DNA of 64,000 nucleotides from Tribonema minus (Eukaryota > Sar > Xanthophyceae > Tribonematales > Tribonemataceae), in assembly GCA_017506865.1 (NCBI GenBank), contig JAFCMP010000135.1:310001-374000 (forward strand). Direction: 5' to 3'. Position numbers and translations under genes: made by a program. Below the pieces are notes generated by a model that was not told the origin of the DNA, did no database searches, and worked only from the letters and a program-made list of their open reading frames with translations. Shown in pieces: positions 425 to 63,272 of this stretch (within the stretch, counting starts at the first letter, position 1; every line of letters begins with the position of its first letter).

Positions 425-720
425 TGTACGTGTGCTGGTCCGGCGTGTCGCCGCGCCGCTGCGTCTTCTCCAGCAGCGACAGCGCGCCGCTGCGTCTCCT
501 CCAGCAGCGACAGCGCGCGCGCGCCGTGTATAACTCGCCAAATGTCTCGATAGTCAATGCCTCCACCGCACAACACTGAGCAGCTCAGACTTACAGGTTC
601 TCATCTGGGGCTCAGTCAACGCAGTCATGAAGTTCATACCTGTACGTGTGCTGGTCTGGCGTGACGCTGCGCCGCTGCATCTCCCCCAGCAGCGACAGCG
701 CGCGCGCTGCGGTCGCTGCG
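425..720 (-). repeat. Donor-half copies of PPR exon 931-808
   Basis: Two decayed copies, near 425-530 and 640-720, repeat the last part of the exon at 808-931 together with its donor. Both begin on the plus strand with ctgtacgtgtgctgg. They lie downstream of the live exon in the transcribed direction. They no longer keep a clean reading frame, so they are intronic relics or decoy donors. Confidence 0.7.
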
Positions 721-807
721 CGCGCCAACCATGTGCGGCCATCAGCCATTTGAGAAGAGACAAGGGCTCAATTAGCACGACCATGATGCTCATAGAAGTA
801 TACGTAC

Positions 808-3800
808 CTGTACGTGTGCTGGTTCGGCGTGACGCCGCGCCGCTGCATCTCCTCCAGCAGCGACAGCGCGCGCGCGCGGTCGCTGCGCACGGCGCAGGCG
901 CCGATCACGACGTTCCAGGGGGAGGCCTCGCCTTGCACTTCCTGCCGATGCGGGGGGCGAGGGGCAGCAGTTGTACGAAGTTTGGGAGGTTTAGGGCTTT
1001 TATCCAAAACGTTTTGATTACATTTTGAGAGATCACGTCGTTCCACGGTGCGGCGGCGCCTTGACGTTTGCCTGGCGGCTTAGTGTCAGGGATGCACAGG
1101 TATGCATGTAGAGCAGTATTGAAGTTTGGCATGAGCTGCTGAGCCTGAAGTTGTACGGCGCAGAGAGGTTTGGGCTTTTCTTTTGTTCCTTGACATTGTG
1201 AGAAATCACATCGTTCCACAGTGCGGCGTCGCCCTGAAGAAGACTTCCTGGCGGTGCAGGGTCGGGGATGTGCCCATGCATGCATGTAGAGCACTGTTGA
1301 AGGTTTGGTCTGAGTTTGTGCTAGGGCGCGGCTGCGCCTCCGCCTGCTGCAAGCGCTGACAGAACCTAATAAATAATGAATATGCATGGCGCGCTCGCGG
1401 CGGACAGGCCCCCGCACCTCCTCCGCCGCCGCAACAGCAGATTTCACTGGATAACTATTTGATATGGTGGCTGTTGGACCCGTGGCCAATTGTTGCAGCA
1501 GCGGCGACCACGGTGTTTGGTGGAAGGCATGCAATTGGACAGCTAACCACACCTTGTCACCTTGAGCTCTACGATCTTTTGATTCTTTTTCATTGAACTT
1601 CAGCTCTAGCTTCAAATTGAACACTCGTCGAGGCACGATCACGCGCTACTCAGCAGAAGTTGCGCCTCTCGGCGGCAAAGGGGAAAAAGCGCGCACTGTG
1701 CACCAGAATCATCAGGCCTGAATTCGCTACGCTGCGGCGAACGAAGCCTGTCGCCGCCTCAACAGCTGTACGTTGCAAGTGCTGCCTGCTTGCCTGGGGC
1801 GGCGCCTCCAGCAGCAATGCAAACAGCTCCTCATATGCCTCGTCCGACATCTCAGGCGCGGCTGGCGCCGCTGCTGCCGCGCCCATCTCCCTATCCCCTG
1901 CAGCAGCAACGCCCACCGCATCTGCGCCGCTGCTGCCAGCCGCACCCACGCCACCGACGGCGCTGCTGCCCTCAGCTTCGCCGCTGCCGCCGCTGCCGCC
2001 AGCAGCATCATCGCCGCCGCCGCCGCCGCCGCCGTCAGCGCCGCTGCTGCCGCTGCCGCCGTCCCCCGCGCCGCTGCCGCCGCCGCCGCCCCACCGCACG
2101 GCGCTGCGGCGCACCGCCGCGAGCAGCGCGCAGTGCACGGGCGGCGTCGGCGCGACGCCGTTGACGCGCATGCGCGCCAGCAGCGCGCGCGCCTCGCGCC
2201 ACGACGGCAGCGCGCCGGCGGCGGCGCAGTACACAAACGCCGTCGCGCGCAGCGGCGCCGCCGCCGCCGCCGCCGCCTGCGGCGACGCTGCCGCCGCCTC
2301 CGCCGCCGCGGCACGCGCCTCCGCGGCCTCGACCTCGCCCAGGAGCTGCAGCGCGAGGGGCCAGCGCGCCGGGCCTTCGCGCGCGCACGCCGTGAGGCAC
2401 ATGGTGTAGCTCACGGTGCTGGGCTTGAGGCCAGCGGCCTGAGCGCGGGGGGGGGGGGGGGGGGAGAGGGGGGGGGGGAGGGGTGTTGAGCAACGGTGCG
2501 CAGCAGCGCCGGCGGTTTGTGGAAGGGCGACGAGCAATGAGTGGGTCACGGACTATGGTTGCTCAAGCATCTGAGCGCGGGGGAGTTTGAGGGGTGCGCG
2601 GCGTTGCGCGTAGCGCCGCCGCCGACGCTGCAGGCGTGCGGTGTGGGAGGCGTCGGATGGCGTGGAAGGCTCCACTTCAAAATTATTGCATCACACTTGA
2701 AGTTCCTGCCACACACGTCACGGCGGCATGGACGACACCACTCAGACAGGACAACCCCCTTACAGACCACGCCGCCGCCGCCAGCGCCAAACTCCGCCGC
2801 CGCCTGGGCAGCGCAGCCGCCCGCTCCGCCTGCGCTCACGCACTAATCGCGCACTGTTACAAATGCATGTATACATGTATATGTAGCAGAGCATGCCAAC
2901 CGCGACATCACGCGGCAGCGCTCACCTGCGCCTGCCTGAGCAGCGCCACAGCCTGCTCCGCCTGCGCCTCGCGCGCGAGCGCCTCGAGCGCGCAGTTGAA
3001 GACGCGCATCGACGCCGCCGCGCCCGCGCCGCCGCCGCCGCCGCCGCCGCCGCCGAACGCGCCCGCCACCGCCGCCGCCAGCACCTCCACCGCCGCCGCC
3101 GCGCCGCGCAGCCGCCCGACCTGCGGGGCGCGGAGTGTCACCGCGGCACGAACAGGGGTCATTTGCGGTGAGCGGCAGACGCGTGTTTGAGCAGGAAGAG
3201 GGGTGCAGCGCACAGGAGACCGCGAGAGGACCGGGGTCACTAGAGAGAGAGACCACTGGGCAGTAGCAGGGCGAGGCACCCCGCGATACCGTGGCCCGTC
3301 ATTAAATGTTTATATGGTATATATAGGTTTTACTACCAGCCTTTGTTTTTATCTTTAAATCGAATTCTAGACGTCTAACAAGATTTAAACAAAGATAAGA
3401 ATTAAAAAAAAACAGGGGTATGAAGGCATTTAAGACTTGCAAACTTGTAGTCTTTTAATACAAGCGTTACTAAATAAAAATTAAATTATTTAAGAATTTC
3501 AGCCTTTGCAAACAAACTAATTACGGGGTTGAAGTTTGGTCGTCGTTCAAAAGAGCTGCAGGTTCTTCGCCCGATGATTGTTTGAATTTTTTCTTTATGT
3601 TTAAACGTTTTTACACGCGATCTAGTGAGTCCTGTGCGACTCTTGAGCCGCGGCGCCGCCGTGCGCAACGGCACCGACAGCGCGTGAGCACGGGTGCTTC
3701 GCGATGAGCAACGGGTGCGGGTACAGGAGGAAGGACCAAAGGCGGCGCGCACGAGGCCACAAAAGTGGGGCCGCGCAGTACGAAACTATTGCGCTGTGAC

Positions 3801-4773: not shown

Positions 4774-4811
<38 letters not shown>

Positions 4812-4998
4812 TGCGCGAGTCAGTGTTTGGTATGCCCGCCGCCGTTGCCGCGCTAGAGCGCTGAGAGGAGGCGCAGCGGCAGCAGCGATGGCATCAGTGT
4901 TCAGCACAAGTGCTGCCGGCGCCGCCGCCACCGCCAGTGCGCAGGCGTATTGCAGTGCGCCGCTGTCGCCGCCGCCGCAGCAGCAGCAGCAGCAGCGA

Positions 4999-5029
<31 letters not shown>

Positions 5030-8000: not shown

Positions 8001-11000
8001 AAACGTGTCAGGATGAAAGCTAGGATTGGGGCGATTGAATGAAAACATAAATAAAATCTGTTTGGCGGTGACCTACACCGTGCCATTAATGCAGTGCAGC
8101 CCTCGACTCATATGGTTGACAGAAGCAGATGACGTCAGAATATCCTGTGTGTGAACCAGCTTATGGAACACGCAAGCAAATGAATTGCCCTCGGTTATTA
8201 TCAAATTGGGGTCAAGGCTAGATTTAGGGTTAGAGCTAGGGTTACGCACCTGGCCCCCGGGGTAGTGTGTATGATGCGCTGCTCTTGGAGATTGGAATGG
8301 ATTCAGGACTAGGGTTAGGGTTAGGGCTAGGGTTACGCACCTGCACCGCTTCTCTACCCCCCTGCACCCCCTTGACGCCCACAGGGTAGTGTTCGCTGTT
8401 CAGTGCGTGTTTGATGTCGAATGCGCTGCCCCTTGCAAACTGGATCAGGGCAGGGCTAGGGTTAGGGCTAGGACTGGGGTTACGCACGTGCATCGCCTCG
8501 CCGAAGCCCGCACCCTCCTTGATGCAAGCGGGTCAGTGCATGCTGTATGCGCTGTTTCCCCTTGGAGATTGGAGTAGGGTCAGGGCTAGGGCCAGGGCTG
8601 GGGTGACGCACCTGGCCCGGGGGGTAGTGTATGATGTTGAACGCACTGCCCCTCCTTGAGTAGTAACTTTGGATCAAAGCTAGGACTAGGGCTGCCCCCT
8701 GTCAAAGCTAGGGCTAGGGCTAGGGTTATGCACCTGCATCGCCTCGCCGACGCCGGCGCCCTTGGCCACGGCGTCGATGGCGGCCGAGTAGTGGATGACG
8801 TTGGGGTCGACGCCGCGCTGCCGCATCGTGTCCAGGATGTCCAGCGCCTGCTGCCACCTGGCGCGATAGAAGGGGAAGTGCGTCAGCTTCCACGTGTGTG
8901 CGTCAGCTTCCACGTGAATTCAGGGCGCCTGAATTCAGTGCAGCTGATGCTCTTGCCTCCCCGCTACCGCTGTGCAGGCTGCAATGCGAGTGTGTCAGCT
9001 GCACCATGAGCTTGTTCCATTGAATGGGGGGGTGCATCATCGTCCGCTGCAACGCGCTTCCGCTGCAATGCACATGCAGGCTTGTAGGGAGCAAAAGCTG
9101 CCAAGAAGATGAGGTCCTGTACAGCATCAATGGCAGAGACCCACTCGCAGGCACTTCCGCTGCAACGCACACGCAGCCATCAGGCTCATAGGGAGCAGAA
9201 GCTGCTAAGAAGATGGGGTCCTGAACAGCATCAACTGCGGAGTAATCGTGTTTGCATTTTAACCATATTAGGTCATGACAACAATTGGATTGACAAGATA
9301 AAAATAATGGTAGAAAGTAAATTTTTAAACTATGCCATAATTGGTAGGAAAACTAGTGAGACAGGTTACAAGCAGCTTCAATGTTATTTTCAAACATGAA
9401 AACAGGCAACCTTTGGAAAGATGAAAAAATGTTTCTTTCAATTCACTTAAGTCCAGTTAGAGGAACTGTAGAAGAGATTCTCGTTTACAACTTAATACAG
9501 GATAAACCCGCTCCGTGGGCACTTCGACTGCAACGCGCATGGCAGGCTTCAGACTTGTGGTGAGCGCAGCTGCTCAAAAGGAAAACGCCATGTACAGCAT
9601 GAACAGCGCAAACCCACTCGCAGGCGTCGAGGTCATACGGAGCCTGAGCTACTCAACCTCTGGCCGTGATGCATTGTCCTACGAGCGCTCATCGGTGCGG
9701 CGCGTCTAACCCTAACCCTAACCCTAACATCAGGTGCGCCACATTTGACGGCAAATGTCCCACGACCCCATGCGCGTGCAGCGCTGCGCGGCGTCCGCGC
9801 CTGCTGAGCCACGCGGGACGCGGCGACGGCGCAGCGCGGCGTTCGCCGTGAACACGCCCTCCTTCATTCATCAGTGCTTTGTAGATGCTCACATTGAAAT
9901 CATGACTGAAGTCTTGGTTGTGCAGCAGTAACCTGACTTGCGATTCCAATTTGGCGGTGCTTTTTTAGCAACACGTTACACACCGCACGACCTAGCGCCG
10001 ACCGCCCAACGTACGAGGCAGCGTGCGCGCGCTGTCGCGAGGCACATGTGATGCCATTGATTCGGCCCGACCACCGACTAACGCAGTCCGCATGCAATGA
10101 CCTGGGTCATTCAGCACAACTGTGCAAACGCTGTACCAGGGTGACCCCAGTGATTTCTCCTGTGTAACATACTTCAGGAAGTACAAGTCTCTGGCTTCCT
10201 TCCCGTCAAGCCTTCATGACAAGCGCGCTCGCACCTGTTGAGGCGCGTCGACGCCGTAATGGCGCAGCCATACACGATGGGGTCGGGTACGAAGCGCGCC
10301 TCCGCGTCCATGCGCACTGGGTCATTCAGCACAACTGCGTGAACGCGACACCGAGGTGATCCCGCTGACGTCTCCCATACCATATACACACGTTCTCTGG
10401 CTCCCTGTCTATTGAACTTCTACAGCAAGCGCACCTGTTGAGACGCGTCGACGCCGTAATGGCGCAGCCATACACGATGGGGTCGGGTACGAAGCGCGCC
10501 TCCGCGTCCATGCGCACTGGGTCATTCAGCACAACTGCGTGAACGCGACACCGAGGTGATCCCGCTGACGTCTCCCATACCATATACACACGTTCTCTGG
10601 CTCCCTGTCTATTGAACTTCTACAGCAAGCGCACCTGTTGAGACGCGTCGACGCCGTGATGGCGCAGCCGTACACAATGGGGTCGGGTACGAAGCGCGCC
10701 TCCGCCTCCATGTCCCGTATAGCATACTTTGACGTACAACTTTCTGCTTTTGTACCACCCCAAAACGTTAGTAATCAGCAAGCGACGTCCGCACCTGTTG
10801 AGCCGCGTCGACGCTGTGATGGCGCAGCCGTACACGATAGTAATTGCATTGATTCCTCCTGAAAAACATGCTTCAAGAGGCACACGTTTCTGGCTTCCTT
10901 TCCGTTGAACCTTCACAACACGCGCAGCGCCCGCACCTCTCTGGCTATTTTACTGTTGATTCCTTACAACAAACGCGGCGTACGCACCTGTTGAGGCGCG

Positions 11001-14000
11001 TCGACGCCGTGATGGCGCAGCCATATACAATAGGGTCAGGCACAAAGCGCGCCTCCGCCTCCATGCGCGCGAGCAGCTCCAGCACGCGCGCGTTGCGGCC
11101 CGCTTTCAGAGCGGCGCCGATCGCGCAGCCGAAGGAGAACTGCGAGGGGCCGCCCGCGGTGGCGGCGTCGATGAGGTCGAACCACTTGAGCGCCATCTGC
11201 AGCAGCGCAGGACGGCGTAGTGGGGGCGTTCCGGGTAAAGTTTGAAGTGCAAGGTCGACTGCCAACGAGGAGAATCGGTGCGACTTTCCAGGTCCAAGCA
11301 GGTCCTACTTTGGCGTGCAGGCATTTAAGTTCAACTATGAAGTTGCTGCCGGAATTGAGCGCTGCGCCTATCGCGCAGCCGAAGGAGAACTGCGAGGGTC
11401 CGCCTGCTGTGGCGGCGTCGATGAGGTCAAACCACGTCAGCGCCATCTGCGACGCGGAGCGGGGCGCTGCACGTCAAGTTTGAACTACATGGTCGGCTGC
11501 AAGCTATGTACACAGGTGCAAGAATTGTGCATACTTTGAGTATATAATATATATATAGTTGGTACATCAGTGATGCATTTCCATCACTTGAGTGCCGCCG
11601 GTATACCATGTTGCACAATTGAATTTTGTTGTTGAAACGCTTGACGCCACCACACCACGCCAGCAGTTCTGATTTCTCGCAGCACTTAGTTGTATGTGCT
11701 ACATCAATGTCGCATCAGCTGCGCACTGGGCTCACCTGAAGGCGCCGTAGGTCAGGGTCACTAGGGACTTGATCAAAGGGTGCAGAGTTTTCGGACATCA
11801 CGGACCGTATGAGGCAGTTAAGAAAGATAGAGGTGCTTGCACAGCAGTGCGCAGCCTGCTGTTGCCATGTCCACAGGATGGACCTTTTGAGCGTCACGCA
11901 ACAATGAATACTGAGGTTCAATCTACTGGTGCACCACTCAATGCCGCACCTAGCAAATAATTAGTTCATATACAAATGGTTATTTTTATAGGCTCAGGCA
12001 AAACTGTGACTTCAGTATGAGATAACTTATGCTGCAACCATAGTACGCTCCAGCACTGCACAGCCAGGCATCGCCTGAGAGCCTTTGGAGGCGGCCAAAA
12101 GAGCTTCAGCATGTACATGTCTATGTACATCATATATAAGTCAATCTCGTGGATACATACCTCGGAGTACGCGGCTGGGAGATTTTTGAGGGCAATTGAA
12201 CCTAAGCTTAAACTTCAAGTCACTGAGCATTGTAAGCACAACAGACGCGTGAAAGCTGTCGGCGGTGTTGATTCTGCGAGTGCGCCAAGAACCCGCGCGG
12301 GCCGTGACCTCCTACCCCCAATTCTGCGCTCCAGCGCAACAGAGCGGCTACTTTGCAGGTATACACATGCAGTACACATGCAGTACACATCAGAACCCCC
12401 ACTCACCTCATAGTGCCCCACCTTCGACGCAGCGCTCATGGCCTGGTTGCACACGCACACGGCGTCCGCAACCGTGGGCCAGGAGTACACATGTAGTACA
12501 CATCAGTACATATCAGAAACCCCCCCACACTCACCTCATAGTGCCCCGCCTTCGAAGCAGCCCCCATGGCCTGGTTGCACACGTACACGGCGTCCGCGAC
12601 CGTGGGCCACGCACCACCGCCACCAGCACCCCCCCGCGCCCCCCCTGCCCCCGACTTCCCATGTTCAAGTGCAACCGCGCCCTTGCCGCCGCCACCGCCG
12701 CCGAGCGCGCTGCCCCCTTGAATGCCGAGATCGCCGCCGCCGCCAGCGCCGCTGCCAGGACTGCTGCTGCTGCTGCTGCCGTTGGCGCCCGTGCTGTCTG
12801 CATCGCTGCCGCGCGCCGCAGCATCGGCAGCGGGGCTGCTGCTGCTGCCGCCATTGCTGCTGGCGCGATGGGCGTCGGCGCGCGATGCGCCATCGCCAGC
12901 GCCACCGACGACACCGCCGCTCCTCTGTACAGAATCAGTTGCAGCAACGCGACCACCGCTGCCGCCGCCACTGCCGCCGCCGCTGCTGCCATTCACATGA
13001 CCGCCGTCCGCGCCCTCCGCAGCAGCGTGCTCTACGACGCCACCGGCAGCAGCGCCACTGCCGCCGCCGCTGCCGCCACTGCTGCCGCCGCTGCTGCCGC
13101 CGCCGCCGCCGCCCCGCTCCGGCGCCGCCGCCTGCGCACAGATGTCGCGCAGCAGCGCCTCCGCGTCCTCCCAGCGCTGCCCGAGCGCGTACGCGCGCGC
13201 GGCGGCGCTGTAGTGCGCCGTGAGCTCCGCCGCGTTGCGCGTGCGCGACCGCTCCAGCAGCGCCGGTATGCGCTCCCACCGGCCGTGCTTGCCCGCAATG
13301 TGTATGCCACTGACGAAGGCGCCGCCGGGGTGCGGGGGGCGGCCGCTGCCGCCGCTGCCGTTGCGGTTGCCCCTGCCCCCTGCGATGATGGCAGGCAGGG
13401 TCTGAATTTCTGGTTGTCACGGGTGACGTGAGAAAGAGGGGCGTTGCGCAGCAGAGCGTAAGCTCTACACGTGGAGGCCTGAATACATAGCAGCGAATTT
13501 CACCGCTTGTATGATTGGCACACCGGCACCACTGCGCATACGTTAGGCTGCAGCACAGCGCTGGCTGGTAGTCAACAACAAAGGATGCCATCCGCACGTC
13601 AGTCAGGAGCACTGTGCGTGCATCACAATTTTCGACATCTGGACCAGTGCAAATCGCAGCATGCTCACACAGTTATGAGCAGACTCAAGGCTGCCCACAC
13701 AACTGCGCCTTTCTCGTCAGGTGTATGTAGCTAGATCGTTAAGGGTCCCATCCGAGTGCGCATGTCCTTCCCGCAGAATTGCCAATCCACAGGCAGCCAA
13801 TTCCATTGCTTGTATAAGATCCTCGCTACATGTTGCTGTTAGAAAGAGACCTGCAGCTGAGCCTCATGCACCGGCGCCATTCGCGTTGATCACAGTGCTT
13901 CAGCTACTGAAGCATGAGGACCATGTTCGACGACGCATGGTGTATGCGCGGCAGTATGTCAACTCATTGGATAGAACACAAAGATAAGAAAGACTGGTGA

Positions 14001-14992: not shown

Positions 14993-15035
14993 GTGAGTGC
15001 GTTGCGGCACCTTATGTTTTTATACTTCTGCATAA

Positions 15036-22200: not shown

Positions 22201-25200
22201 GCTTGCGGCATTTTTGCAGGATGCTACAAAGAGGGATGTGCACAGACTGCAATTTATACGCATGAGGCATGGTGTCACATCCTCTAGATGCTTGAACAAA
22301 ATCAAAAGCTGTTCTCAGCCAGATTCTTGCATCATGCTTGCAGTTGCCAGTAGTTTCTATAAGTGTTGTTGCAACCTGAGAACTAAATCTGGGGTAACAA
22401 CACACTGAAATTATTGCTTTCAGTAGATGACCATATTACCTCCAGGCGTAATTTGAGTTGTTGTGGATATTGCAAACTCCAAAAGCACGACATAAAACAA
22501 TTAGTAAGCCCACTTTCCGGTTCGTCAAATGGCCCCACAAAAAACCCACACCCCAACTTTGGGGTACTACGTTTGCTGCTGCTGGCCGGGATGTATTGAC
22601 GACGCAGTCTGTGCATGAAATTACTTCCAGCGCGAGTCAAAAATAAACATCTAATAATACTGAGAGTCTACACATGTAAACAGAATGCAGTCCCGGGAAA
22701 AAAATAGCCTTCTGCACCTATTACCAACAACAAAGTGAGGCGCGGTGCTGGCGTACAACACGTTATACTTTGCAGCATATATATGGAAACGATTTCAACC
22801 GTAGAGCTGCAGGTGACAAGGAGTGGTTAGCCGCAAGTGCCTTCCACCGATAACCGTCGTCGCCGCTGTTGCAGTCATTGGCCATGAGTCAAGCGGTGCC
22901 ATCTTGTCCACAGTAGTCAAAAGACTTCTGTGTGCAAGCTTTTTAGCATTTGAGGCATGGGTGTTCGGTATATATATTCTGGGGTGCACGTCATTACACG
23001 TCAAAACACACCTGCTGGCGTACAACATGTTACATATACTTCCAAAGTATATAGAAGTAAATACTTCAAAGTTACATATTTTTCCAAAGTATATAGAAGT
23101 AAAAACTTCAAAAGTACATAGAAGTATGTGTATATATTCATCTGGTCATTACTTGTATGCACCACGCACCTCTTCCGCGATGCCGGCCGACGCCGCCATA
23201 ATGGCTGCCGCGGGCAGGATATTGCTGAGGCTGCGCTTGGCACCAAAGATCTGGACCACAAACAGCTGCGTATCGCGGTCGATTTCCTGCAGAAGTGGGG
23301 CGATACACAGGTTTCGGCTTACGTCAGTCAAGCGCGCGGGGACGTGCAGCGACGATACCGGAATTCACTCATCGTGTGCTCTTGAGTGCAAACAGCTGCG
23401 TGTCGCAGTCGATTTCCTGGCGCAGCGAGGCAGCACACGGAAGTCGGTACGCTTCAGGCGTGCGGTGGGTGAGACACATCCTGCCTCCTACCTCAGCGGC
23501 TCTGTACCATGGGTTTCACCAATTCATGATTGCACTCAACAACACTAGGCTGCGGCAGCAGCACTGCTTTCGGGGCAGCTTTCAAGCGCTGATGCAGCCC
23601 TGACACCTTTACCTCCTTTTGCTTACAAACTTATTCGGCAATTTGTAGATGAAACTTTACACCATGAGATGAGCACAGTTTTCCCCCCCAAAATAACAGG
23701 TGCACCTGATGTAGCTTTCCCGCAAATCAACAATATCTCTTTCTGGCTACATATTCCCACCTTTTTTTATTGGCTCTGAGCGTCGGCATTAGTTAAAGCT
23801 GGCTGGTGCAGGTACCGGGATGGCCCAGTGCAGGGTGCTTCACCTTTCAAAAACTTTGCTCTCCAGCACGACAGAGCCCCAGATATGGGTACGGCATAAG
23901 CAACGATATTCACTTTACCTGATTGCATTCACCAACTACCAACTGCTGCAAGAGCGCTGCTTCTTTAACAGGCATTGAGCGCTGATGCGGCCTGCATGCC
24001 GAGTACTGAGCGCGAGCTGAGCACGAGATGCGTCACCTTAAAGAGCTTGATGTTGCTGCGCTCCAGCACGACCGAGCCCACGAATATGGGTATGGCGTAG
24101 GCGATGGCGCTGCTAATGCCCTCCAGCGACGGTGCAAACCCCGCGACTGGGTTGATGTTGAGGAAGGTAGCGATGACTGCCGCGACCGCAAGCACCGCCA
24201 CCTGCGCATCAGGAGACACGTACAGGGGGTATGTTGGTACGGTGGGGGTGATGATGAAGAGGTTGGTGGGGTTGATGTTGAAGAAGGAAGCGATAACTGC
24301 CGCGACCACGAGCACCGTCACTTGCGCATTGTATGACACGTACGGGGTATGTTGGTATGGTGGCGAATAACTGCCGCGACCACGAGCACCATCACTTGCG
24401 CATTGCATGACACGTACAGGGTATGTTGGTACAGTGGGGTTGGTGTTGAAGGAGGCGATAACTGCCAGACCGCGATAACTGCCACCTGCGCATCGGATCA
24501 CACGTACAGGGTATGTTGGTATGGTGGGGTGGTGGATGTTGAAGACTGAGGTTGAGCGCTGATGCGCCTGCGGGCACTGCAACCTGCATACACAAGAGTT
24601 AGGTAGGCAGGTACAATTGGGTTTATGTTGAAGTTGATGTGGAAAATCGAGACGAGCATTGCCGCGACCATGAGCACTGCCACCTGCGCAGGCGGATGCC
24701 GCGTACGGGGTATGTTGGTATGGTGGGGGCGATGTTGAAGAAGGAAGTGATGACTGCCGCGACCGCGAGCACCGCCACCTGCGCAATAAATGACACGTAC
24801 GGTATAGCGTGGGGGTGATGGTGAAGAAGGAAGGGATGACAGCCGCGACTGCGAGCACCACAACCTGCGTATCAGATGACATACGGGGTATCTTGGTGTG
24901 GTGGGGTTGATGTTGAACTGAGGTTGAGCGCTGACGCGGCCGCGAGAACTGCAACCTGTGTATACTTCAAGTAGGACAGGGTGAGGGCTGGGGAGGTGGG
25001 TATGGTGGGCATAAACTTCAATTTGCACATAAAGTGCCTTGAACGTGTGCATTGCAGCGCTTACCTCACCCTGCCCAGGCGTCCTGACCAGGTTGTTGTT
25101 GACACCGCTCAGGGCCATCGTCCACGGGCATGAACTTCAACTTGAACCTGAAAAAACTTTGGAGGGGTGCACTGCAGCGCTCACCTCCCCTACCATGAGC

Positions 25201-37981: not shown

Positions 37982-38007
37982 CGCTACGCCACTGCGCCAT
38001 GTAAATA

Positions 38008-41900: not shown

Positions 41901-44900
41901 TGCTGGGCGCGCTTGTAGTCGTGGTGTGCGTTGTCGTTAATGCTCATGACCTCTTTTTTTCTGCAGGATGCGTGAGTAGCGCCACCACCGTGCCAGAGGC
42001 GGACAACCCATCAGCCAAGCATACACACCTCTCGAGAGATTGTGTTGCCAACCTAAGAAGTGAACTAGGCACACGATTTGCACCTGTCTGAGGTGGCACG
42101 TCAGTGTGCACCCGAGGACCCAACCTCAACATGCGCTGAACTCTGCGCGGTCATTGCGTGATGACGATGCGCGTTCCGTACTGGTGTTAAGGAAGGCGGA
42201 CTGCTGCAAGAGCATGCACTTGAAAAGTAATTCGACTGCATCATAACCCCTACTTCTTCACCAAGCACCTTTGTGAGCATATCATATGTGTATACTCTTG
42301 ACGTGCAATTTTGGGCAGTGGAGGGGGTAAGGGCTAGGGTTAGGATTACGGTCAGGTCTTAAGCACACGCTTGCACGCCACTCAAAAGCCTTTGTCCCCC
42401 CCTCCTCTCCCCCATGTTGCGCGCGGCGTGTCAGAGCTGCGGGCGGGAATCACACGGGCGTGATAGAGTATCTGCTGTCGAAGGGCGCCCCTGTAGATCA
42501 GGCGGACAAGTCGGGACGGACAGCGCTGCACTGGGCGGCTATAAGCGGGCACTTAGAAGCCACACAGGTGATTGGTTCCTGAATTTTCTCAAAATTGCAC
42601 CACGGGGTGCGACAACGATTGTGCCCTAGGGTAGGGCTTACTGAGCAGTGCTGTGCTGACTGCCCCGGCTGCACTGGGCGGCTATAAGCAGGCACTTAGA
42701 AGCCACGCAGGTATCTCCCCGCTGTCACAACTTTTGCCGGCATAATTCTGCGCATCCTTGTCCCAGCCTTTGCTCAGTAGCAAGCAAAATGAAACTCAGC
42801 GAGCAGCCGTCTAGATGCCCCATACCCCCCCCCCCCTCTCCCGCCCCTGAACGATCTCAGTCATGAAGTTTGAGGTATGGCAGCAGAAGCGTGCTGCCCT
42901 AGGGCTAGGGCCTGCTGAGCAGGGCTGTGCTACTGCCCCAAGCATGAGCAGTGCTGTGCGGACTGCCCCGACTCAGAAGCCCCGCAGGTATCCCCCCCTG
43001 AAGTTCTCAATCGTGAAGTGTGACGTACGGCACTAGCATTGCTCATGTGCCCTAAGGCTAGGGCTTGCTCAGCAGGGCTGTGCCGACTGCCCCCACGCAT
43101 GGAGCCGCTCTCGCACGGCCCCAGCGGTGCGCGGCGCGCTGCAGATGGCGCTGCAGCGCAGTCTTTCCCCCTAAGAGGGGCCGCGATCCTGCATAGTGCT
43201 CCAATGGGTTGATTTCTCACACGAGGCATCAACTGCGAGGGGTAGGTACACATGTGCGTGGAGCGCTGACGCTCACCAGTGGTGATGCTCCGCACATGTA
43301 TACATACCCATGGCGAGCCTGGATGCGTGCAGCGCCGTGCGCCTGCGGCCTGCGATGACAGTTGGCGCCGCGCTGCCGTCGCCAACTCCTGCGTGCCGGC
43401 GCTCGCGCGTGTGTAGATCTTGCGCCAGTGCAGATGTAGTGATAGACCATGACGTTGACCATGCAAACACCAGGGAGCTGATATGGCGCGCTTGCGGCCA
43501 GAGGGAGACGCCCGCCGCGCACATGCGTGCAGGTGTCACTCACGGCCATTCATGCTGCGCAAAGGCCGCCGCAGCCGCCGCAGCGTGCGCCTTGCAGTGG
43601 CGGCAGCGGCGCATTTGCTGGTTTGTTTTGGAGTCATGCAGCTGACCGAGCGGTCGCCGCTCCTGCCCCCGCATGCGCGCGCGCATGCGCCCACGCGAGC
43701 TCAGCACATCAAAAACGCCTGATCAGTTCAGAAGTAAATTTCAACTCCATGTTGAACAAGAACCTCAGTGTTGATGTTGTCTAACTTCATATCTGCCGCA
43801 GATGCTGCTGAAGAAATAAACTTCAACTCCATGTTGAACTCAAACCTCAATTTTGACATTGCTGAACTTCATATATCTGCCGCAGATGCTGCTGGACAAG
43901 GGCAGCGCGCTGATGAGCAAGACGGGCAGCGGCTCCACGGCGTCAGGAAATAAACTTCAATTCCATGTTGAACAAGAACCTCAATGTTGATGTTGTACAA
44001 CTTCGTACATCTTTATCGCAGATGCTGCTGGAAAAGGGCAGCGCGCTGATGAGCAAGACGGGCAGCGGCTCCACGGAGTCCAAAAATAAACTTCAATTCC
44101 ATGATGAACCAGAACCTCAAATGTTGATGTTGTTCAACTTTACACACTTTATCGCAGATGCTGCTGGACAAGGGCAGCGCGCTGATGAGCAAGACGGGCA
44201 GCGGCTCCACGGAGTCCAAAAATAAACTTCAACTCCATGATGAACCAGAACCTCAAAGTTGATGTTGTTCAACTTTATACATCTTCATCGCAGATGCTGC
44301 TGGACAAGGGCAGCGCGCTCATGAGCAAGACGGGCAGCGGCTCCACGGCGTTCAGCCTCGCGGCGGAGGGCGGGCGCGTGGAGGTAGTGCGGCTGTTCAT
44401 GGAGAGGGCCACGGCGGCGGCGACGCTGGAGGCCATGTGCAATGAAAAAGTGAGGATGAAGTGCCATACATCTTAATTCTGTACATTTATCAAACTTCAA
44501 ATTATAACGGCGGAGGGCGGACGCGCGGAGGTAGTGCGGCTGTTCATGTAGAGGGCCACGGCGGCGGCGACGCTGGAGGCCATGTGCGACGAAAAAGTGA
44601 GGACGAAAGTGCTACACAACTTCATCATTGAAATTGAACTAGGTCAAACATCAAGGGGGACACGAGGTAGCCATGAAAATCCAGTGCACTTCAGCAGCAG
44701 TGGCTGTTCATGGAGAGGGCCACGGCGGCGGCGACGCTGGAGGCCATGTGCAATGAAAAAGTGAGGACGAATGGAGTTGCGCAATTTCATTGTTGAAGTT
44801 TTCATCGCTGGATTCATAGAGGGACTGCAGTAGTAGCATTCAACATTTCAGCAGCGGCGGCTGGAGCGGGCCACGACGGCGATGCTGGAGCCATGTGCAA

Positions 44901-46141
44901 CGAAAAAGTGAGGATGAGAGGGGGGCATCTTCATTGTTGAAGTTATCACCGGGACCTTGTGTTTGAAGTTTTCAGTAGGATCATGTAGTAGCAGTGAACT
45001 TCCTGTGCACTTCAGCAGCGGCGGCTGTTCAAAGAGAGGGTGACACCGGCGGCGCTACAGGCAATGTGCAAAGAAACTAACAATAATAAAACAGGGAGGA
45101 CGACGAGGACACCGCTGCTTGCGCAAGTTGTTGATTTAATGTTTGGATTGCTGATAGGGCAGCCAATTGTGACATACATGTCAGCAGCAGTTTGAGGTAT
45201 GCTTGCAGTTCGCGGCCCATGAGCCGATTCTTCTAACGACAGTATTGCTCAGATTTCCTTCGTCTGCAAGCATGAGGTATGCGACACAAAACGAGGGGGC
45301 AAGTAGAACCTGCATTGTATGCAACCGTAAGACGACCAATTCCGTCTCTTCTAAACCCTGACTCTGAACCCTCACTCTCACCCTGCAATCAGTCATTCAT
45401 AGCCCCCGCAGCTGCTGGCGCCGGCTGATACCCTGTTGTCTACTTATTGCGCGTGATGCAGGACTCGAACGAAAAGACCGCGTTTGATCTGGCAGCGGAG
45501 GGCAAACATCAAGCCGTCTGTAAACTGCTCAAAGGTGAGCGGTGCTGTACACACTCGTGGCGTTTACCTACCTCTAACCCTAGGTGAAGCCGTACTGCTA
45601 GGGTTAGATTTTTAGTTTACACCAACCTGGTAGGATGAACCCCAACCTAAGGTGTACTCATGGATTTCTACTTTGTGCATCAATTATTTGGAGTATATAT
45701 GGACGTGTACCCGTAGAGTTATCATGTTCATTGTCCGAAGAAAAGTACCTCAACGTATTCAATTTTAATACTTCCAATAAATAAACAATAGCACCACTTC
45801 ATGTGCTGCTTCCAGAAAGAAAGAGGCACCTGATTTGCCTGAGGTGTTGTTGATTTGCTTGGTCACACTTTAGCGTTGAGCTGTGGAGATGCTCATGTAT
45901 GTGTAATGCACATCACAGCATACAGCTACTGGTTCCTTGCAACAGTTGTCTTACGCGCCTTGCCGCATTGCTCTGCACAACAATGAACTGCACCAATTGA
46001 ATGCGATAACCCCAAGTTGTGCCCACCACAGCACATCGCGCTCCATTTAACCCACGCATGTCGCCCCGCCCTGCGCCTCTGTGTCCCCCGGCAGAGATGG
46101 GGGATCCAAACGCCCAATCAGCAGCATGCACCATCAGCTAG
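38989..46141 (+). CDS. Ankyrin repeat protein, 178 residues
   Basis: Exons 38989-39051, 41169-41233, 42435-42567, 44294-44449, 45462-45534 and 46095-46141 total 537 bases with phase closing at all five introns, in a gene 7.1 kb long. The start MPTDTELHKAAHNGDLAKCK opens repeat 1. Later repeats carry RALHRAAGGNHTGVIEYLL, GRTALHWAAISGHLEATQML, FSLAAEGGRVEVVRLF and EKTAFDLAAEGKHQAV, making five ankyrin repeats and almost nothing else. Ankyrin repeats are protein-binding scaffolds; no enzyme domain is present, so the partner cannot be named. Repeat 4 has an Ala-rich insertion (ERATAAATLEA). Every internal exon from 2 to 4 is flanked by tandem copies of its own edges, which account for most intron length. 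Confidence 0.9.
40570..41168 (+). repeat. Acceptor-half copies of ankyrin exon 2
   Basis: Three decayed units near 40575, 40775 and 40930 and the live unit at about 41095 share cacacgccgctgaa-like filler, then an exon start like ctgatagaggcaggcg. Units are about 150-200 bp. The copy nearest the exon is the best preserved. Confidence 0.7.
41255..41865 (+). repeat. Donor-half copies of ankyrin exon 2
   Basis: Units downstream of the live donor repeat gcgcgctgc(g)cag-type exon ends with donor remnants, followed by atggtgatgctcagactg-like intron sequence, near 41320, 41395, 41500, 41680, 41750 and 41840. They decay with distance. Confidence 0.6.
42640..42990 (+). repeat. Donor-half copies of ankyrin exon 3
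   Basis: gcactgggcggctataagc and gaagccacgcag plus a GTATCT donor (42668-42717), then a shorter copy gaagccccgcag with GTATCC (42976-42992), repeat the end of exon 42435-42567. The first copy differs from the exon at only a few positions. Confidence 0.8.
43790..44293 (+). repeat. Acceptor-half array of ankyrin exon 4, 136-bp period
   Basis: The exon start atgctgctg recurs at 43802, 43886, 44022 and 44158 before the live exon at 44294; the last three spacings are exactly 136 bp. Each unit holds about 70 bp of intron, a ccgcag or tcgcag acceptor and the first 66 or so bases of the exon, then breaks to [20 protein letters not shown] sequence at the same point. The outermost copy is truncated. 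Confidence 0.9.
44495..45085 (+). repeat. Donor-half array of ankyrin exon 4
   Basis: Four units downstream of the live donor, near 44500, 44697, 44855 and 45015, repeat the last 60-100 bases of exon 4 (acgctggaggccatgtgc), the gaaaaa end and the GTGAGG donor. Similarity falls with distance: the first is nearly identical apart from a stop, and the last is heavily diverged. Confidence 0.85.
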
Positions 46142-50514: not shown

Positions 50515-50954
50515 CCTTGCCGCCCCCTCCAATGAAGAAACCGTGAGTGTAGAAGCAGCCGTCTACATGTCACTGGCTACCCACTGCCCTGCGCAACCGC
50601 GGCAGAGACAGCGTACACTGCCCACAGAGCACCTCCTGCAAAGTCAGCGGAGAGGTGCCGCTGGCCAGGGCAATGAGGCCCCTGCTTCCAAGAAACTGCA
50701 ATCTGTGACGAACAAGAAGGCAGCAGCATGCAGCAGGCGTTGGCAAGCCTCTGGCGTTGAGATTGTGACTGTCACAGTGGTGCGTGTGGATTGCTGTTGT
50801 CCTTGCAATTGCGTAAGCGGACAACAGCCGCTGAGAGCTGAGGGCCGTCTGAAGGGCGTTCGTCAGTTATACTTTTTTAGTTTTGCTTCAGGGGCAAAAA
50901 CTCAGCATCAAGAGCCCTGCCAATTGCACTAGCTACTGTGTGCATGACGCTGAC

Positions 50955-53900: not shown

Positions 53901-56331
53901 CTGGCTCATCTGGCACTTGTGGCAAGGCCCTTTCAGTGCGCTGTTTTAGTTAGTGCTCAGGGCTCGCCTGAACGTATAGCACAAGTGTACTGGAGCTCCA
54001 GTGTCGCGGATCCTCATTGCCCTGCATACCTCGATGTATGGCGCTTCCACATTTTGCAATGCTTCATAGAAGTACATGCTGCCTTGCAGGTAAATGTTAT
54101 ACACAAGTTCTGCCGTCAACTGCTGTATTGAGGATCATCCGCATCATGTCGACGCCTTAAAATGTTCGCATTGGCAGTCAGCCTTGGCAATGGCTCAGGC
54201 CGCCAACACGAGGTAGGCCCGCCTGAAGCTGAACGCCAAGCGATGCTCGCCTTACACCACAGACTTGATTTGACCAACGTGCTGTAAAGTAGGCCGTACA
54301 ATTGGGCCGTCTGACTTTGGCGTCATCCCGCCAGGTCTAGGGGTTGCGGAGGTTTGACGCATACTGAGGTGCAATCAACATGTTGTAGCTTACTGGTGAT
54401 GTGGAAGGGCACTGAAATGCAACAGTCATCTAATGGCTGTCAACATGCTACAGCAGACCTGGAAATATGATTTTTGAACTTTGCCGTCATACTTTGAAGT
54501 TTTTTTTCCAATTTGGTGTCATTTGAAGTATGTAGAGCTTCAAGCCTCAAGACTCGAAATTTACATTTCAGAAGCATTGTATGAATACCCAGTAGTTGTA
54601 CAATACCAAAGACCCAGCAGCATCACGTGATCATCGTGTGCTGACTTAGTGCTTTAAGAATTTTTGATGTAGGGCCACTTGCTGCTTCTTGAAGCGTCCA
54701 TGGGCCTAACCAAGGAGCCTAGTTGATTGGTGATGAATTGCTGCAAAAATGCAACTGCAGCCATGCGTACCTCATTTGATCCTGCTGACAATATTCCGCG
54801 CAATGGTCGCGCGCTGTCCCCCTGGCAAGGTGTTGCCCCCTGCCAAACTGTCGATTGCGGTTGCAATAATGCGTCTGTTGGACTTGAAGTAAGGTCTGGT
54901 GGACTTGAAACAAGGTCTGGCTCGTGAATGCTGGGCTCCTGTGACGCCGCACACTAGCAAGCAATGAGGGCAGATGAGATCAAAGGGTGGCAGGTAAGGA
55001 CATGATTTGCAACATTCACGTTGTGCTGCGCCACCCTGCTAGGTCAAAGACAACGATTTGGTACAACAGTGCTCATCCTAGCTCACTACGATGCAGTACC
55101 TTGAAGTATCTACTGAAGTCTTATGGGCGATGGCCTGTGAGAATGCTGTATGTTCTGGTCATATTCACTTTGAAAAATGAATATTTAAGGACAATATTCC
55201 TAGTAGTGCTCCAGAGAATATACACTCTGCTTTGGAATGCGTACTTGTGGCAGAGCCATTGTGTGCATGAGCTACAAGTTGAACGTACATAATCTGCACG
55301 GAAGCAACCTCCGGATGTGACGCTTCAACCCTAACCCTAACCCTAACCCTAACCCTAACCCTGCAATCCCTATCATCAAGAGTCAAACGCCTACTGACCT
55401 GCAGCAGCAGCTGCTTGCGCCGCTCGCGCCTGCGCGCGCGGCGCTGCTGCCTGAGCTGCTCCTCGGCGCACAGCTGCCGGAACATGTCCACGAGGTCGTG
55501 CCCGTCGACGCCGGCTTGTCTGCAGAGGCCAAGGCAGCGAGCATCACTGAGGGAGAATTTCAGGGCATACCTGCGCCAGCTGCCATGTTACAAGGGCCTT
55601 ACAAGGGCCAGTTCAGCTGATGGCCTCTGATTCTAAATCGTCCTCTTAGTATAGGAGGCCTGGCATGTGCCTCTCGGCCAGCGCACCGTAGCCCGTGGAT
55701 GCAGCTTTGGGCATGGTCCCGCTGGCTGGCACACTAAGTAGGCGCGGTGACGATGCACAACCCGACACGCTGCTGTCTTCCTACGTGTCACCGCAGGGGC
55801 GGCGACGCATGCACGTCTCAGTGGCGCACGCAGCGTCTCAGTGACGCACGCAACATCGAGCGGAGCACGCACAGCCGACGCTGCAGCGCGCCGCACACCG
55901 CATGGTCAATGTGCCAGCCCTCCGTGCATGGGTCACCACGCGGCGCTGATCAGCAGCGCTACACATGGCAGCGCTCACCTGTCCCGCGCCAGCGCGTCGG
56001 GCGCCGCGCGCCCCTCCGCACGGTGTGCTATCGTTGCCGCTCTCAGACCACGACATTGCTCACAGCACGCAGCAGCTATTGGCAGCTCTCACAGTGGAGC
56101 GTGGCAGCGCTCACCTGTCCCGCGCCAGCGCTTCGTGCACAGCGCACGCCTCCGCGCGCGACACCGCAACGCGCGCAACGTCGCGCACGAGCGCGCGCAG
56201 CCGCTCTGCACCGTACGGCCCATTGGCGCGCACGCCTTCGAACACGGCGCCGCGCACGCCGCCGCGCACGTAGAGCGCTGCCGCGAGGCGCCGCCACAGG
56301 CGCGGCAGCGTCGCGGCCACCGGCGGCGGCA

Positions 56332-56368
<37 letters not shown>

Positions 56369-59300: not shown

Positions 59301-62300
59301 CTACACTTACAGCGGCAGCGCCCCTATCCGTGTATGCGGAGGCGGCCTTGCGCAATTTTGCCATCGCTCGGAGCCTGTCTTGAGCAGCGCGCTGACACAT
59401 TGGGAAAGAGGGAGCAAGCGGCGAGCAGTATTGGTGCGTCAAGTCTGACAGGCTTGATTGTTTTTGTTATGCTAGCCTCGGATCCAATACAAGGCACACC
59501 GCCTGCTCCTGCTACGCAGCCAATTGCTATCTGATGGGACTGGTGCCAATGTGAAGCACTCAGCAGTAGGTTGGTGAGCACTGCTGGCATGAAGAAAGCT
59601 CACATGGGCAGTGTGGTTGGTGATTCAACAATGGTGGTGAGGCTAGGTCTACAGTATTGGATACTGCTTTCCTTCTTGGTCATTGTAGATGGCCGATGCA
59701 GGCGTGGCCTCGCAGTATCAACAAGCTTCCAAGAGCAGCCGACTGACCACGTGCGCAATCAGCGTTAGCCGTGGGTAGCCACTGAAGCCAATGCGCTCCA
59801 TCCCGTTTATTTTCGATCAATGCTCCTGTGCACACCCCAGTTCGCCCCATGCCGCATTGTACAAGCTGTCGTGTACCAACTGCTCAAATACACCATGTTG
59901 AGATGGTGCCTGTCGCATAAGGATGGCGGTGATGCTCCCGTCGCGCTGGCAGTGCATCATGGCATCACTTCGTAACTTTCTCTAGCACTACCAGTAGGCG
60001 CCCAGCATAGAAGTCGCCATGCCGTGTACTTGCACATAGTGCTCCGATGGACGCCATGGCCCGTGCTTTACACAGTTGTTTGAAGGTGCGCCAAAATATC
60101 TGTGGCGCTGCTGACGCCACCAACGCACCTTTGCAGCAGCTGTTTCCGCACCAGGGGCGGACCCGACGGTGTCCTGAGCCTGTGGCGTGCAGTGCGTAGG
60201 TAGGTGTTGAGTACTTTGAGTATAGACTTGGGGAGGAGTGGCATATGCTTTCAGCATCTAAGCTTAGTAGATTAGGTGGTTCAGCTGGTGCGTGGAACTC
60301 TGTATGCTCAAGCTGGCTCGGCGGCTTAGCAGTGGACAAATGTGATTGACCAGCCCTTGAGTGAATGTACACGTGCACAAATCTGTCAGCACTCATGACA
60401 ATGCTCAGCGTCAACGGATGCGCAAATTAGTGCGTCAGTTCTGAACTTACAGACTTCAGGCAAGTTTTGCACCTGCAACAGAAAGTATGCCTAGCATAGA
60501 AAGGTGCTTTCGAGTAGCTCAAAGTTGCCCAGAACGGACAACATATTAACCATGTTTGAACAGAGGTATGAAAAGAAGGAATGCACTTTCAGTTTGCAGC
60601 TGATGGGGTTGTCCTGGTCATCGACCAACCGTACAATATTATGAGCTCTACGATCTTTTGATTTGTTTCCGATATGCTTAGCTGGCTCCTGAGCGTCTAC
60701 TCTTATTGCCTCGCGCCAGCTGCTGCGTGACGCTACATGCTGTGCGTGTTCTGGCCACCATCAATCAGAAATGGGGCACAGTGCTCAGTAGGTTTGAAAT
60801 AGGATTTCTGTATTTCGCAAGTATCAGTAAGCACAGGCAATATTGTTCAAGGCTTCCGAACTTGGAGTCGGTTGCCTCCAGTTGAAGCTTTAGGGCCGGC
60901 ATTAGAAACAAGTGCACTAACCGCCGAGGTTTTGGCGAGAGGCACCCAAGTGCTATGAGCGCGGACTTCCTGCTCCCAACCCACTGCCTGGCACACTACA
61001 CCATAGCATTTGCAGAGTCCCTCAATGAAGGTTAGACTCGTCAGATAAGAACGCTGCACAAAGTGCAGCTGAGCACTGCAAGTCTGTGCCGCCGGCCTCA
61101 ATCACACAACAGCTCCCGACAAGCATTGGTGTTGGCATTCTTTTTCCCAATTGGCTGTGGCGGGCTGTCAGCTAGGCTTGTGAAGTTACATCACTGCAGC
61201 GGAGCCACACTGTATTACCTCGCGTGTGGGAGGCTCAGCGCTTTTGGCATGCGATGCCCGCATGCCGCACGTGCTGCGCGTGGAGCAGCCGCTGCCGACC
61301 GACCGTCTGGCACACCGCTCAGCAGCGTCCGCGGCCTGCAGCAGCTTCAGCAGCACGCCCTTGCCCGCGAGCTTGGTGCCGTACACGTGCTGCAGCGCGT
61401 CTGCCTCCTCTTTGGACATCTGCGACGCGCGGCGCGAATGCGGGCGTTGGAGGCATTGCTCGCGCTATTTTCATGTCTGACCCTCGCGATGCGGGTAGGG
61501 GGGGCGAGGGATAGTGCAGACTGAACATGACCAGCACTTGGGTAGAGGGACTGTTTGCAGCGTATGAGTGGCAATGCGGGTAACGGGGCGAGTCACAGTG
61601 GAGGTTGGCGCCGTACGCATACTGCAGCACGTCCGCCTCCTCTTCGGACATCTGCGACGCGCGGCGCGAGTGCGGGCGTTTGAGGCAGTGCTCGCGCTGT
61701 TCAGGTCTCCCTCGCGATGCGGGTAGGGGGCGAGTGATAGTGCAGACTGAACATGACCAGCACTTGGGTAGAGGGACTGTTTGTAGCGTATGAGTGGCAA
61801 TGTGGGTAATGGGCGAGGCACAGTGGAGGCTGGACATGATCAGCGCGTAGCCAGGGGGGCTGTTTGCAGCGTATGCCTGGGGCAAGACAGCGCCTGCCCT
61901 GCTGAAGAAGTGCAGAAGGAGCGACCTGGAAAGTGAGCAACTTGACAATGCTGATGTGCATAGCTCCAGCATGCATCAGCGGAAAGAATATGTTGGAGAT
62001 GCAGGGTGTGTGTGGGTTGCGTTTGAAGCCGTTTCAGTGGGGAGAGTCGCAACGGAGACAGAACATGCCAGCACTCAGCCACAGGGGCAGTTCGCAGCGC
62101 GTGGTCAGTATAGTGCTGATCCATAGCTTGGCATCATGGGTCCCTTCAGGTATATGCTGCCACACATCAGGCGCAAAGCCCGCAGCTGCGGGTGCTAGTC
62201 AATGCAGGTGCTGCACGCAAAAGTGCCGCTCAGCAACGGCACGTGCGTACTGCAGCAGCTTCGGTAGTGTACTGTTGCCCGCTAGCTTGTGCCTCAACGC

Positions 62301-63272
62301 ACCCCCTCCCTCCTCAGTCATTGGCCTCAGACGCTGCGCGCAGCGTACGCAAATTTGCGTGCCTTGTCGATGACACTGTAGGCTTTTGCCGCATATGATG
62401 GGGATGCCGGCGGTCTCAACAGTGTGATGAATGGGGAGCGGCAATGCATTGTGCAGATGACAGCCTGGAAATACTATTGGAGTGGCAAGCCCCCATCTCC
62501 TTGAGCTCATGTGGATCACACGTGCTTCACAGAGCACGTCATTGTGTCACATACAGGAGGCTAGCAAGCATCTGGGACGTGAAGCGAGACCAGTTTTTTT
62601 TTTTGTTGTTGTAATGAAAGGCGGTAACTTGAGCAGGTTCGGAGTCCCTGCCTGCTCGCTGGCGCTAAGCGCTGGCCTGTGTTGGGCTCTCAAGTTAACA
62701 ACTGATATGTCCGCTGGTGTCTACATGTTGCGTTAGGCCTAGGGTTACAAACTGAAGGAAGAGACTGGTAGCAGCGCACGTGCTGTAGCATCAAAGATTG
62801 TGCAGCTTTAGCTCTATGCATCTGACTGTAAATTTGGTGGCGCGCTCAGCCATTTGCATCGCACGTGTCATTTGCATCGCACATGTCTGAGGGCAGTACG
62901 TAGAGTTCATCAAGTCTTCATGATGGAGAGGGTCAGCAGCAGCGCTGGTGGCTGCTGCTGACCAATGTGCTGCTGCATGTTCACATGTCAGAAGAAGCAC
63001 CCACATCGCGCCCTTGCTGGTTGGAGTCACTGCAGCGCTACTATTACTAGCAAAAAGTGCCCATTGTTTCCGCAGACGCAGACGACACAAGCAAGCAAAG
63101 ATGTGAAGCGTTGGAAGAAAGCGGTTCAAGAGAGCGATACTTTCTGCCTCATTGAGCTGCTTCTACGCACCTGCACAATGCAAGTGTCATCATCCGATGC
63201 TTGCTTCTTCATGACCACCCCCTTCACCCTCAGCGCCAGCTGCGCAAGAGCAGCGCTTCGGCCATCCCACTC
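50955..63272 (-). CDS. Long EF-hand protein, partial or open at both ends
   Basis: Predicted exons: 63272-63171, 61419-61219, 59391-59311, 58983-58822, 58050-57963, 56928-56823, 56507-56115, 55519-55399, 54839-54771, 52637-52529, 51669-51531 and tentatively 51099-50955. Phase is compatible throughout; those from 59391 to 55399 and at 52.6-51.5 kb are best. The clearest domain is a canonical EF-hand loop, DADGSGTVDGAE, within 58983-58822. Degenerate EF-like units follow or precede it: MSKEEADALQHVYGTKLAG; RQAGVDGHDLVDMFRQL; LSPFKASDALTCK; SADGAPGGTLDCRRFLRML. Basic helices (RAQRMAAYRRRYMKEH; RRARRRERRKQLLLQ), an acidic patch (GDSDDDD) and a proline run lie between them. This resembles large multi-EF-hand calcium-binding proteins. 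Neither the start nor the stop is located, and 54.8 and 51.1 kb are the weakest exons. An open frame at 53818-53414 could be another exon. Confidence 0.6.
55327..55362. repeat. Interstitial telomere-like repeat (CCCTAA)n, longest tract
   Basis: About six perfect CCCTAA units lie just past the donor of exon 55519-55399 in the transcribed direction. This is the longest such tract in the window and is intronic. Confidence 0.85.
55970..56010 (-). repeat. Donor-half copy of EF-hand gene exon 56507-56115
   Basis: gcgctcacctgtcccgcgcc repeats the exon end and GTGAGC donor found at 56108-56127, about 135 bp downstream of it. It is short but nearly exact, with further GC-rich similarity after it. Confidence 0.7.
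60637..60676 (-). repeat. Dispersed repeat family R1, copy 7 (end fragment)
   Basis: Only the terminal part, agctctacgatcttttgatt and tgtttcc, is present. It marks the same end as copies 1, 2 and 6. Confidence 0.5.
61445..62350 (-). repeat. Acceptor-half array of EF-hand gene exon 61419-61219
   Basis: A unit of roughly 200 bp is copied upstream of the live acceptor. The first copy (about 61610-61690) repeats the exon start almost exactly (MSEEEADVLQYAYGA against MSKEEADALQHVYGT). The filler gatagtgcagactgaacatg plus accagcacttgggtagagg occurs at 61511, 61735 and, decayed, 62060. A strongly diverged exon copy lies at about 62235-62345. Confidence 0.75.

Follow-up and report, generated by a model that had tools for sequence, protein, structure and literature searches.

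Exon-edge tandem arrays in Tribonema minus probably reflect frequent local duplication filtered by splicing

In a 64,000-nucleotide stretch of the genome of the xanthophyte alga Tribonema minus (contig JAFCMP010000135.1, C135:310001-374000 of the 158-Mb assembly GCA_017506865.1, 554 contigs; hereafter the window), introns of unrelated genes hold tandem copies of the edge of an adjoining exon, together with its splice site and a piece of intron. Frequent random tandem duplication filtered by splicing probably explains these arrays. Local duplications in tandem, roughly one hundred to a few hundred base pairs long, would arise often and more or less at random along genes, and those lying wholly within exons would mostly be purged by selection. 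A duplication whose two breakpoints fall on either side of a junction, one exonic and one intronic, would survive, for splicing would join the complete exon and the spare edge would stay in the intron. Some arrays (those with 136-, 117- and 200-bp units) may then have grown through further unequal exchange, the intronic filler would decay fast, and gene conversion would re-homogenise the exon parts of the spare copies.

Local duplications were called by a self-BLAST of the window (matches of at least 30 bp at offsets of 20-2000, low-complexity matches dropped), which gave 24 clusters, and Tandem Repeats Finder (TRF) returned 62 rows. The arrays named in a preliminary description of this sequence were present where it places them, and units printed and aligned at their own period were found to consist of filler, splice site and exon edge, arranged head-to-tail with the junction inside the unit. 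Because the clearest arrays, with periods of 117, 128, 136, 200 and 232 bp, reach 88-98% matches in TRF, they are not chance matches. Fourteen of the 24 clusters are linked to a splice junction, nine on the donor side and five on the acceptor side, the assignment being made by hand from junction motifs and open frames, in some cases with a Pfam match (PPR, HMG) or a paralog (ankyrin); in the remaining ten clusters, the sequence of only some of which was printed, no junction was visible. The composition of the units, on both exon sides and in unrelated genes, is as the preliminary description had it, and it is also seen elsewhere in the genome. Cases that it did not list occur at, e.g., 8.3, 11.3, 29.4, 29.8, 42.5 and 56 kb. 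Its gene labels fared unevenly. PPR_2 and HMG_box (E values in Table 1) and zf-MYND (E = 3.8e-9) pass the Pfam cut-offs and the ankyrin match is weak (E = 0.0034, below the cut-off); the EF-hand label could not be confirmed, as the 61-kb stretch tested had no family match at E up to 1, and a scan of 10 proteins gave no CPBP match.

The ankyrin gene illustrates the arrangement on both sides of one exon. Its acceptor-side unit, filler-TCGCAG^ATGCTGCTGGACAAGG... (^ marks a splice junction or, further below, a duplication joint), is repeated upstream of the sole copy that runs on into the remainder of the exon, here called live as opposed to the spare copies. At its donor end (...TGCAATGAAAAA^GTGAGG) this exon has further copies downstream, at periods of 147 and then 164 bp, and the paralogous exon on contig C18 is bordered at either end by copies of its own. 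A further exon, at about 10978-11200, is likewise flanked both ways, being the live exon of the donor-side array with 200-bp units and having an acceptor-side copy at 11342-11450. The unit spacings at 10-11 kb are 200, 200, 160 and 193 bp; with the ankyrin donor side, they show that the periods are not always exact within an array, as had been claimed. The two outermost full units here (10230-10429 and 10430-10629) are identical, contrary to the claim that copies decay outward. Two units were searched genome-wide, of which the 200-bp one matched its own neighbourhood only and the 74-bp ankyrin filler matched three other contigs.

Acceptor-side copies lie upstream and donor-side copies downstream of every exon read that has support independent of the arrays, with no exception; such support came from the C18 paralog for ankyrin, and from Pfam for PPR, HMG and for kinase and light-harvesting (LHC) exons elsewhere. 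For the other window arrays, polarity provides no independent test because the live copy was assigned from the layout. The layout is as expected, since the mRNA stays unchanged only if the spare copy is on the intron side. A process acting on exon edges had been proposed from it, yet the polarity follows from keeping the exon whole, and a directed process is neither shown by the layout nor needed for it.

Table 1. Junction-linked arrays and copies in the window (positions counted from the first nucleotide of the window)
Feature	Coordinates	Strand	Junctions and remarks
PPR gene, donor-side array	423..888	-	807 (live), 639, 423 (spare); PPR_2 E 7.6e-9
Donor-side copies around ...GCGATGCAG^GTGC(A/G)TAACCC	8249..8886	-	sites 8733, 8611, 8340, 8249; live one uncertain
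Donor-side array, 200-bp units (...CAACAG^GTGCG)	10219..11068	-	spare junctions include 10794, 10634, 10434
Acceptor-side copy GCAG^ATGGCGCTGACG... (11342-11450)	11092..11450	-	upstream of exon GCAG^ATGGCGCTCAAG...
Donor-side pair, unit ~128 bp	12356..12609	-	12534 (live), 12406
Donor-side array, 117-bp units	25007..25593	-	25528 (live), 25411, 25294, 25184
Acceptor-side pair, unit 168 bp	29290..29648	+	29431 (spare), 29599 (live)
Donor-side pair	29829..30235	+	29874 (live), 30212 (spare)
HMG-box gene, acceptor-side copies	36001..36421	+	upstream of live HMG exon (~36346); HMG_box E 1.1e-6
Donor-side copies of ...GAAGCCAC(A/G)CAG^GT	42525..43105	+	downstream of copy ending at 42567
Ankyrin gene, acceptor-side 136-bp units	43725..44355	+	43801, 43885, 44021, 44157 (spare), 44293 (live)
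Live ankyrin exon, arrays on both sides	44294..44449	+	~81% identical to paralogous exon on C18
Ankyrin gene, donor-side copies	44391..45076	+	44449 (live), 44596, 44760, 44907
Donor-side pair	55966..56155	-	56114 (live), 55978
Acceptor-side pair, 232-bp units	61369..61833	-	61651 (spare), 61419 (live)

The number of junction-straddling duplications was compared with random placement among intron-touching positions, for which the expected straddling share is 2(L-1)/(I+L-1), with L the unit length and I the intron length; this share is large when L is 100-200 bp. For I, 677 bp was used, a rough mean of the gaps between Pfam hits in 14 fetched introns; such gaps overstate intron length, and therefore the expectation at 677 bp is low. 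When the exon parts were masked, 16 clusters were left and 6 of them straddle a junction. On the assumption of a mostly genic window, random placement predicts 6.1 for introns of 677 bp (P = 0.63) and 8.0 for 450 bp (P = 0.92). A strong enrichment at junctions, which a rough estimate had indicated, was gone after this masking. There is no clear sign of targeting of exon edges, and a mild preference is possible.

The exon parts of the units diverge two- to threefold less than the fillers, and this is also the case between spare copies. In the ankyrin acceptor array, copies 43885 and 44157 have 1 difference in 56 exon sites and 15 in 52 filler sites (P = 5e-5); for copies 25411 and 25294 of the 25-kb array the figures are 1/60 and 9/38 (P = 7e-4). 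Among 18 spare-spare pairs summed by hand, which come from ten arrays and are not independent, 100 of 904 exon sites (11%) differ versus 128 of 583 filler sites (22%), about a twofold contrast; when the four pairs with either of the two most decayed copies (25184, 44907) are left out, the counts are 49/682 (7%) and 91/448 (20%), nearly threefold, and all these counts understate filler divergence because the fillers have many more gaps. Exon-part divergence is itself somewhat lowered by the junction-finding patterns, which need an exact or near-exact match of about 8-20 nt at the junction. The filler alignment at 42.5 kb amounted to one column and was left out. Several pairs run counter to the trend, namely 10634-10434 (exon 3/45, filler 0/53), 61651-61419 (8/50, 7/138), 12534-12406 (10/80, 2/23) and those with 25184 (e.g., 19/58, 11/40); the filler of 44157-44293 differs at 2 of 53 sites. 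A custom gene finder, with LHC and kinase exons as its training set and run with and without a comparison of two collinear contigs, strayed into repeats and performed poorly on the window; used only for codon-position divergence and for hints on a few exons, it gave divergences of 0.068-0.073 at third positions and 0.066-0.089 in noncoding sequence.

The exon parts are most likely kept alike by gene conversion with the live exon and among the copies. Spare copies that diverge less in their exon parts than in their filler (e.g., 43885 and 44157) speak for gene conversion, and so do the donor-side ankyrin spares, which are closer to their own live exon (94% in the window, 90% on C18) than to each other across the paralogs (82%). 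Coding selection on the spare copies explains this likeness poorly, because spare 44596 of the ankyrin donor side has an in-frame TAG, the spare PPR copy at 423 has ATACAA in place of the donor GT, and the DnaJ copy on contig C312 has an extra G. The donor-side ankyrin spares of the window and of C18 start at almost the same exon position, no more than about 2 nt apart, and have GCGCGG in common where both live exons have GCGTGG. An old duplication followed by partial homogenisation would give this pattern; judging by these few sites, that history is the likelier one, and independent duplication at the same place a lesser possibility.

Breakpoints could be approached at two arrays. At the ankyrin acceptor array, GTTCAG is common to the intron (...CAGTTCAG^AAGTAAATTTC, ~43726) and the exon (...GGCGTTCAG^CCTCGC, ~44350), and the joint GGCGTCAG^GAAATAAAC is found in the outermost of the long units. 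At the LHC acceptor array on contig C1 the joint falls within CCCC, a weak indication as the intron is C-rich; the LHC paralog on contig C79 has the corresponding intron end and exon without the duplication. Both joints look like microhomology joints, which suggests that microhomology-mediated duplication may have started these arrays. In a hand table of 14 arrays, the duplicated exon parts measure 24-105 nt, and there is no fixed exon length across arrays, because the exon share of the unit spans 0.15-0.67 (P = 0.076 against a uniform spread).

Similar copies were found on other contigs. Fourteen introns were picked, with their sequence still unseen, from tables of Pfam hits (DnaJ, LHC, kinase); one, the DnaJ locus L048 on C312, was left out of the tally because both of its hits fall on one region of the model, so that it was in effect chosen as duplicated. 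Exon-edge copies occur in 3 of the other 13, at the kinase locus L046 on both intron sides and at the LHC loci L052 and L054 on the acceptor side, and none were detected in the other ten. Around the best LHC and kinase exons (11 loci fetched and 10 screened, L010 being left out), two loci carry copies (L007, L013), both on C1; the C79 LHC loci, about 90% identical to C1 in the aligned exons, showed no copies at the same threshold. The whole assembly has 92 exon-wise PF00504 (light-harvesting) matches.

Some observations weigh against random duplication and splicing as the whole explanation. In the unmasked data, 14 of the 24 clusters straddle a junction, where introns of 677 bp predict 9.2 (P = 0.024). 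If only half of the window is genic, the masked expectation falls to 3.1 at 677 bp, and the six clusters seen become a borderline excess (P = 0.066); masks and junction assignments were, moreover, made by hand. At the loci elsewhere, the duplications found with units of at least 100 bp were all junction-linked; the three that are not (L059 and, with flanks of uncertain gene structure, L009 and L014) have units of 42-69 bp. Thirty-nine within-gene pairs from 18 arrays (in one pair of which the junction 42566 was set one base early) have an in-register identity of 0.83-0.96 over 40 nt on the exon side. On the intron side, identity drops within about 10 nt of the splice site, from 0.91 at 1-5 nt to 0.55 at 6-10 nt and 0.29-0.38 beyond, a fall which the in-register measure exaggerates because the fillers carry many indels; unrelated introns aligned at the junction have 0.24-0.28 beyond 5 nt. 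Near-identical exon parts stand beside unalignable filler at C312 204-402 (exon 2/50 differing) and between ankyrin donor copies 44449 and 44760 (1/60), and at C81 787-946 the exon part is alike at 32 of 36 sites and the filler again unalignable; homology through the junction was not seen in the C312 and C81 pairs. The intron-side fall and the unalignable fillers would therefore require a second process beyond plain tandem duplication.

The drop in homology near the splice site, the alike exon parts beside unalignable filler, the unmasked excess and the junction-linked longer units elsewhere speak for a process directed at exon edges. Such a process, tied to transcription or splicing through R-loop- or spliceosome-linked breaks or through RNA-templated repair, would repeatedly copy the edge up to the splice site into the intron. 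The unmasked excess, however, vanishes once the exon parts are masked. It arises because some duplications are recognisable by their exon parts alone, and straddling duplications, thanks to exon parts that stay alike, are the easier ones to spot; with shorter introns the unmasked expectation is itself 12.1 at 450 bp (P = 0.26) and 15.3 at 300 bp. Furthermore, homology runs through the junction into the intron in the young units 10434-10634, 44157-44293, 12534-12406 and 61419-61651, with filler equally alike, and beyond the junction the copies read show filler with a splice site rather than the neighbouring exon as in cDNA, although no systematic search was made. We thus regard such a directed process as unlikely, and as unlikely the idea that junction-bounded re-copying, by RNA-templated repair or by conversion that stops at the splice site, fills introns with fresh decoy exon edges and splice sites.

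It is somewhat more doubtful still that the spare edges are functional, as alternative or decoy regulatory splice sites under purifying selection. Their exon parts and splice-site consensus are kept while the filler decays, as function would predict, but the in-frame stop, the lost donor GT and the extra G each affect one spare copy, and the C79 LHC paralogs do without such copies. Introner-like mobile elements with long target duplications, which might also have made the copies, are improbable. The one hint in their favour is the ankyrin acceptor filler (74 bp, AAACTTCAACTCCATGTTGAAC...; 43725-44293), which matches C2:512015-512072, C42:221008-221065 and C6:57559-57620 as well as C379, C323 and C5, and is possibly a dispersed intron or intergenic element; the statement in the preliminary description that the genes share no sequence is, to this extent, not quite right. 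Against such elements, no exon edge was recognised beside the C2 copy of this filler in the 800 bp inspected, and beyond the consensus the introns of different arrays are at the chance identity given above for unrelated introns. The target duplications of introners are also 3-9 bp where present (PMC9860276), against 24-105 nt here. Tandem arrays are easily mis-assembled, yet an assembly artefact is very improbable, for apart from the two identical 200-bp units the copies differ at several to many positions, the fillers at more, and the layout recurs on several contigs.

The claim that no such system has been described is too strong. A human minisatellite with multiple splice donors was reportedly described in 1995 in a single gene, to go by the title of that paper. 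In human genes within segmental duplications, internal tandem repeats occur at exon-intron boundaries, with 27 intron modifications (PMC2812944). There too, minisatellite-like units expand across exon-intron boundaries and alter introns; the human units, however, average 30 bp and belong to primate-specific duplicated genes, whereas those of T. minus are about 100-230 bp long, in unrelated genes and with long-decayed copies. A tandem duplication of an intron-exon segment in the potato RdRp gene (PMC4974935) is likewise the same kind of event, the duplicated segment holding intron, splice site and exon edge, but it was a single event that gave a new intron and inserted exonic sequence, whereas here the spares appear to stay in the intron. 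A Drosophila survey attributes novel intron positions to tandem duplication, under a model cited to Rogers 1989 (PMC2891723). That model has in common with the present arrays a tandem duplication around splice motifs of which splicing hides one copy; in the model, exonic AG/GY motifs create a new intron, whereas in T. minus the duplication takes in a junction already present and lengthens its intron. Intron gain of the Rogers type, in which the new intron is a duplicated exonic segment with AGGT, was accordingly rejected, as the units hold intron filler and a pre-existing junction. Introner elements resemble the arrays in giving introns repeated content across a protist genome, but they form dispersed families at new sites (PMC9860276, PMC7789003), and the arrays appear to be local and gene-specific. 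Among the matches listed from the openly licensed literature, no title describes such a layout across the genome of an alga. What is new here is the frequency of junction-straddling duplications and the long preservation of their exon parts; the kind of event was already known.

Other repeats and duplicate sequences were seen in passing. In the window, the fillers at ~8.3 kb contain CCCTAA-like repeats, and positions 55327-55362 consist of six perfect AACCCT units; both resemble internal telomere-type repeats. An irregular array at 24149-24904 has spacings of ~74-118 bp and no visible splice junction. Elsewhere, C90:740001-840000 and C179:128001-228000 (loci L016-L035) are collinear over much of the stretch with ~94% identity in aligned bases, matches in their tandem arrays shifting by whole units, as if two haplotypes or the two parts of a large duplication were both retained in the assembly. 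Kinase matches on C144 and C223 are paired, with equal or nearly equal scores and in inverted order, and suggest a second pair of duplicate contigs. For the C79 LHC exon L006, very long LHCI chains (616-1048 aa), each of which matches in 3-4 stretches, rank first by E-value in the PDB and hint at light-harvesting relatives of polyprotein type; next come chains named ACPI, CAC and ACPII, names associated with cryptophytes.

Ordinary duplication and splicing can thus enlarge introns and stock them with ready-made splice sites. Such arrays are a plausible source of alternative splicing and of shifted exon borders. As arrays of different ages stand side by side in one genome, both the fate of duplicated junctions and the cause of exon-part preservation become measurable. 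They also call for caution, in that survival and unequal detectability can mimic the targeting of exon edges.

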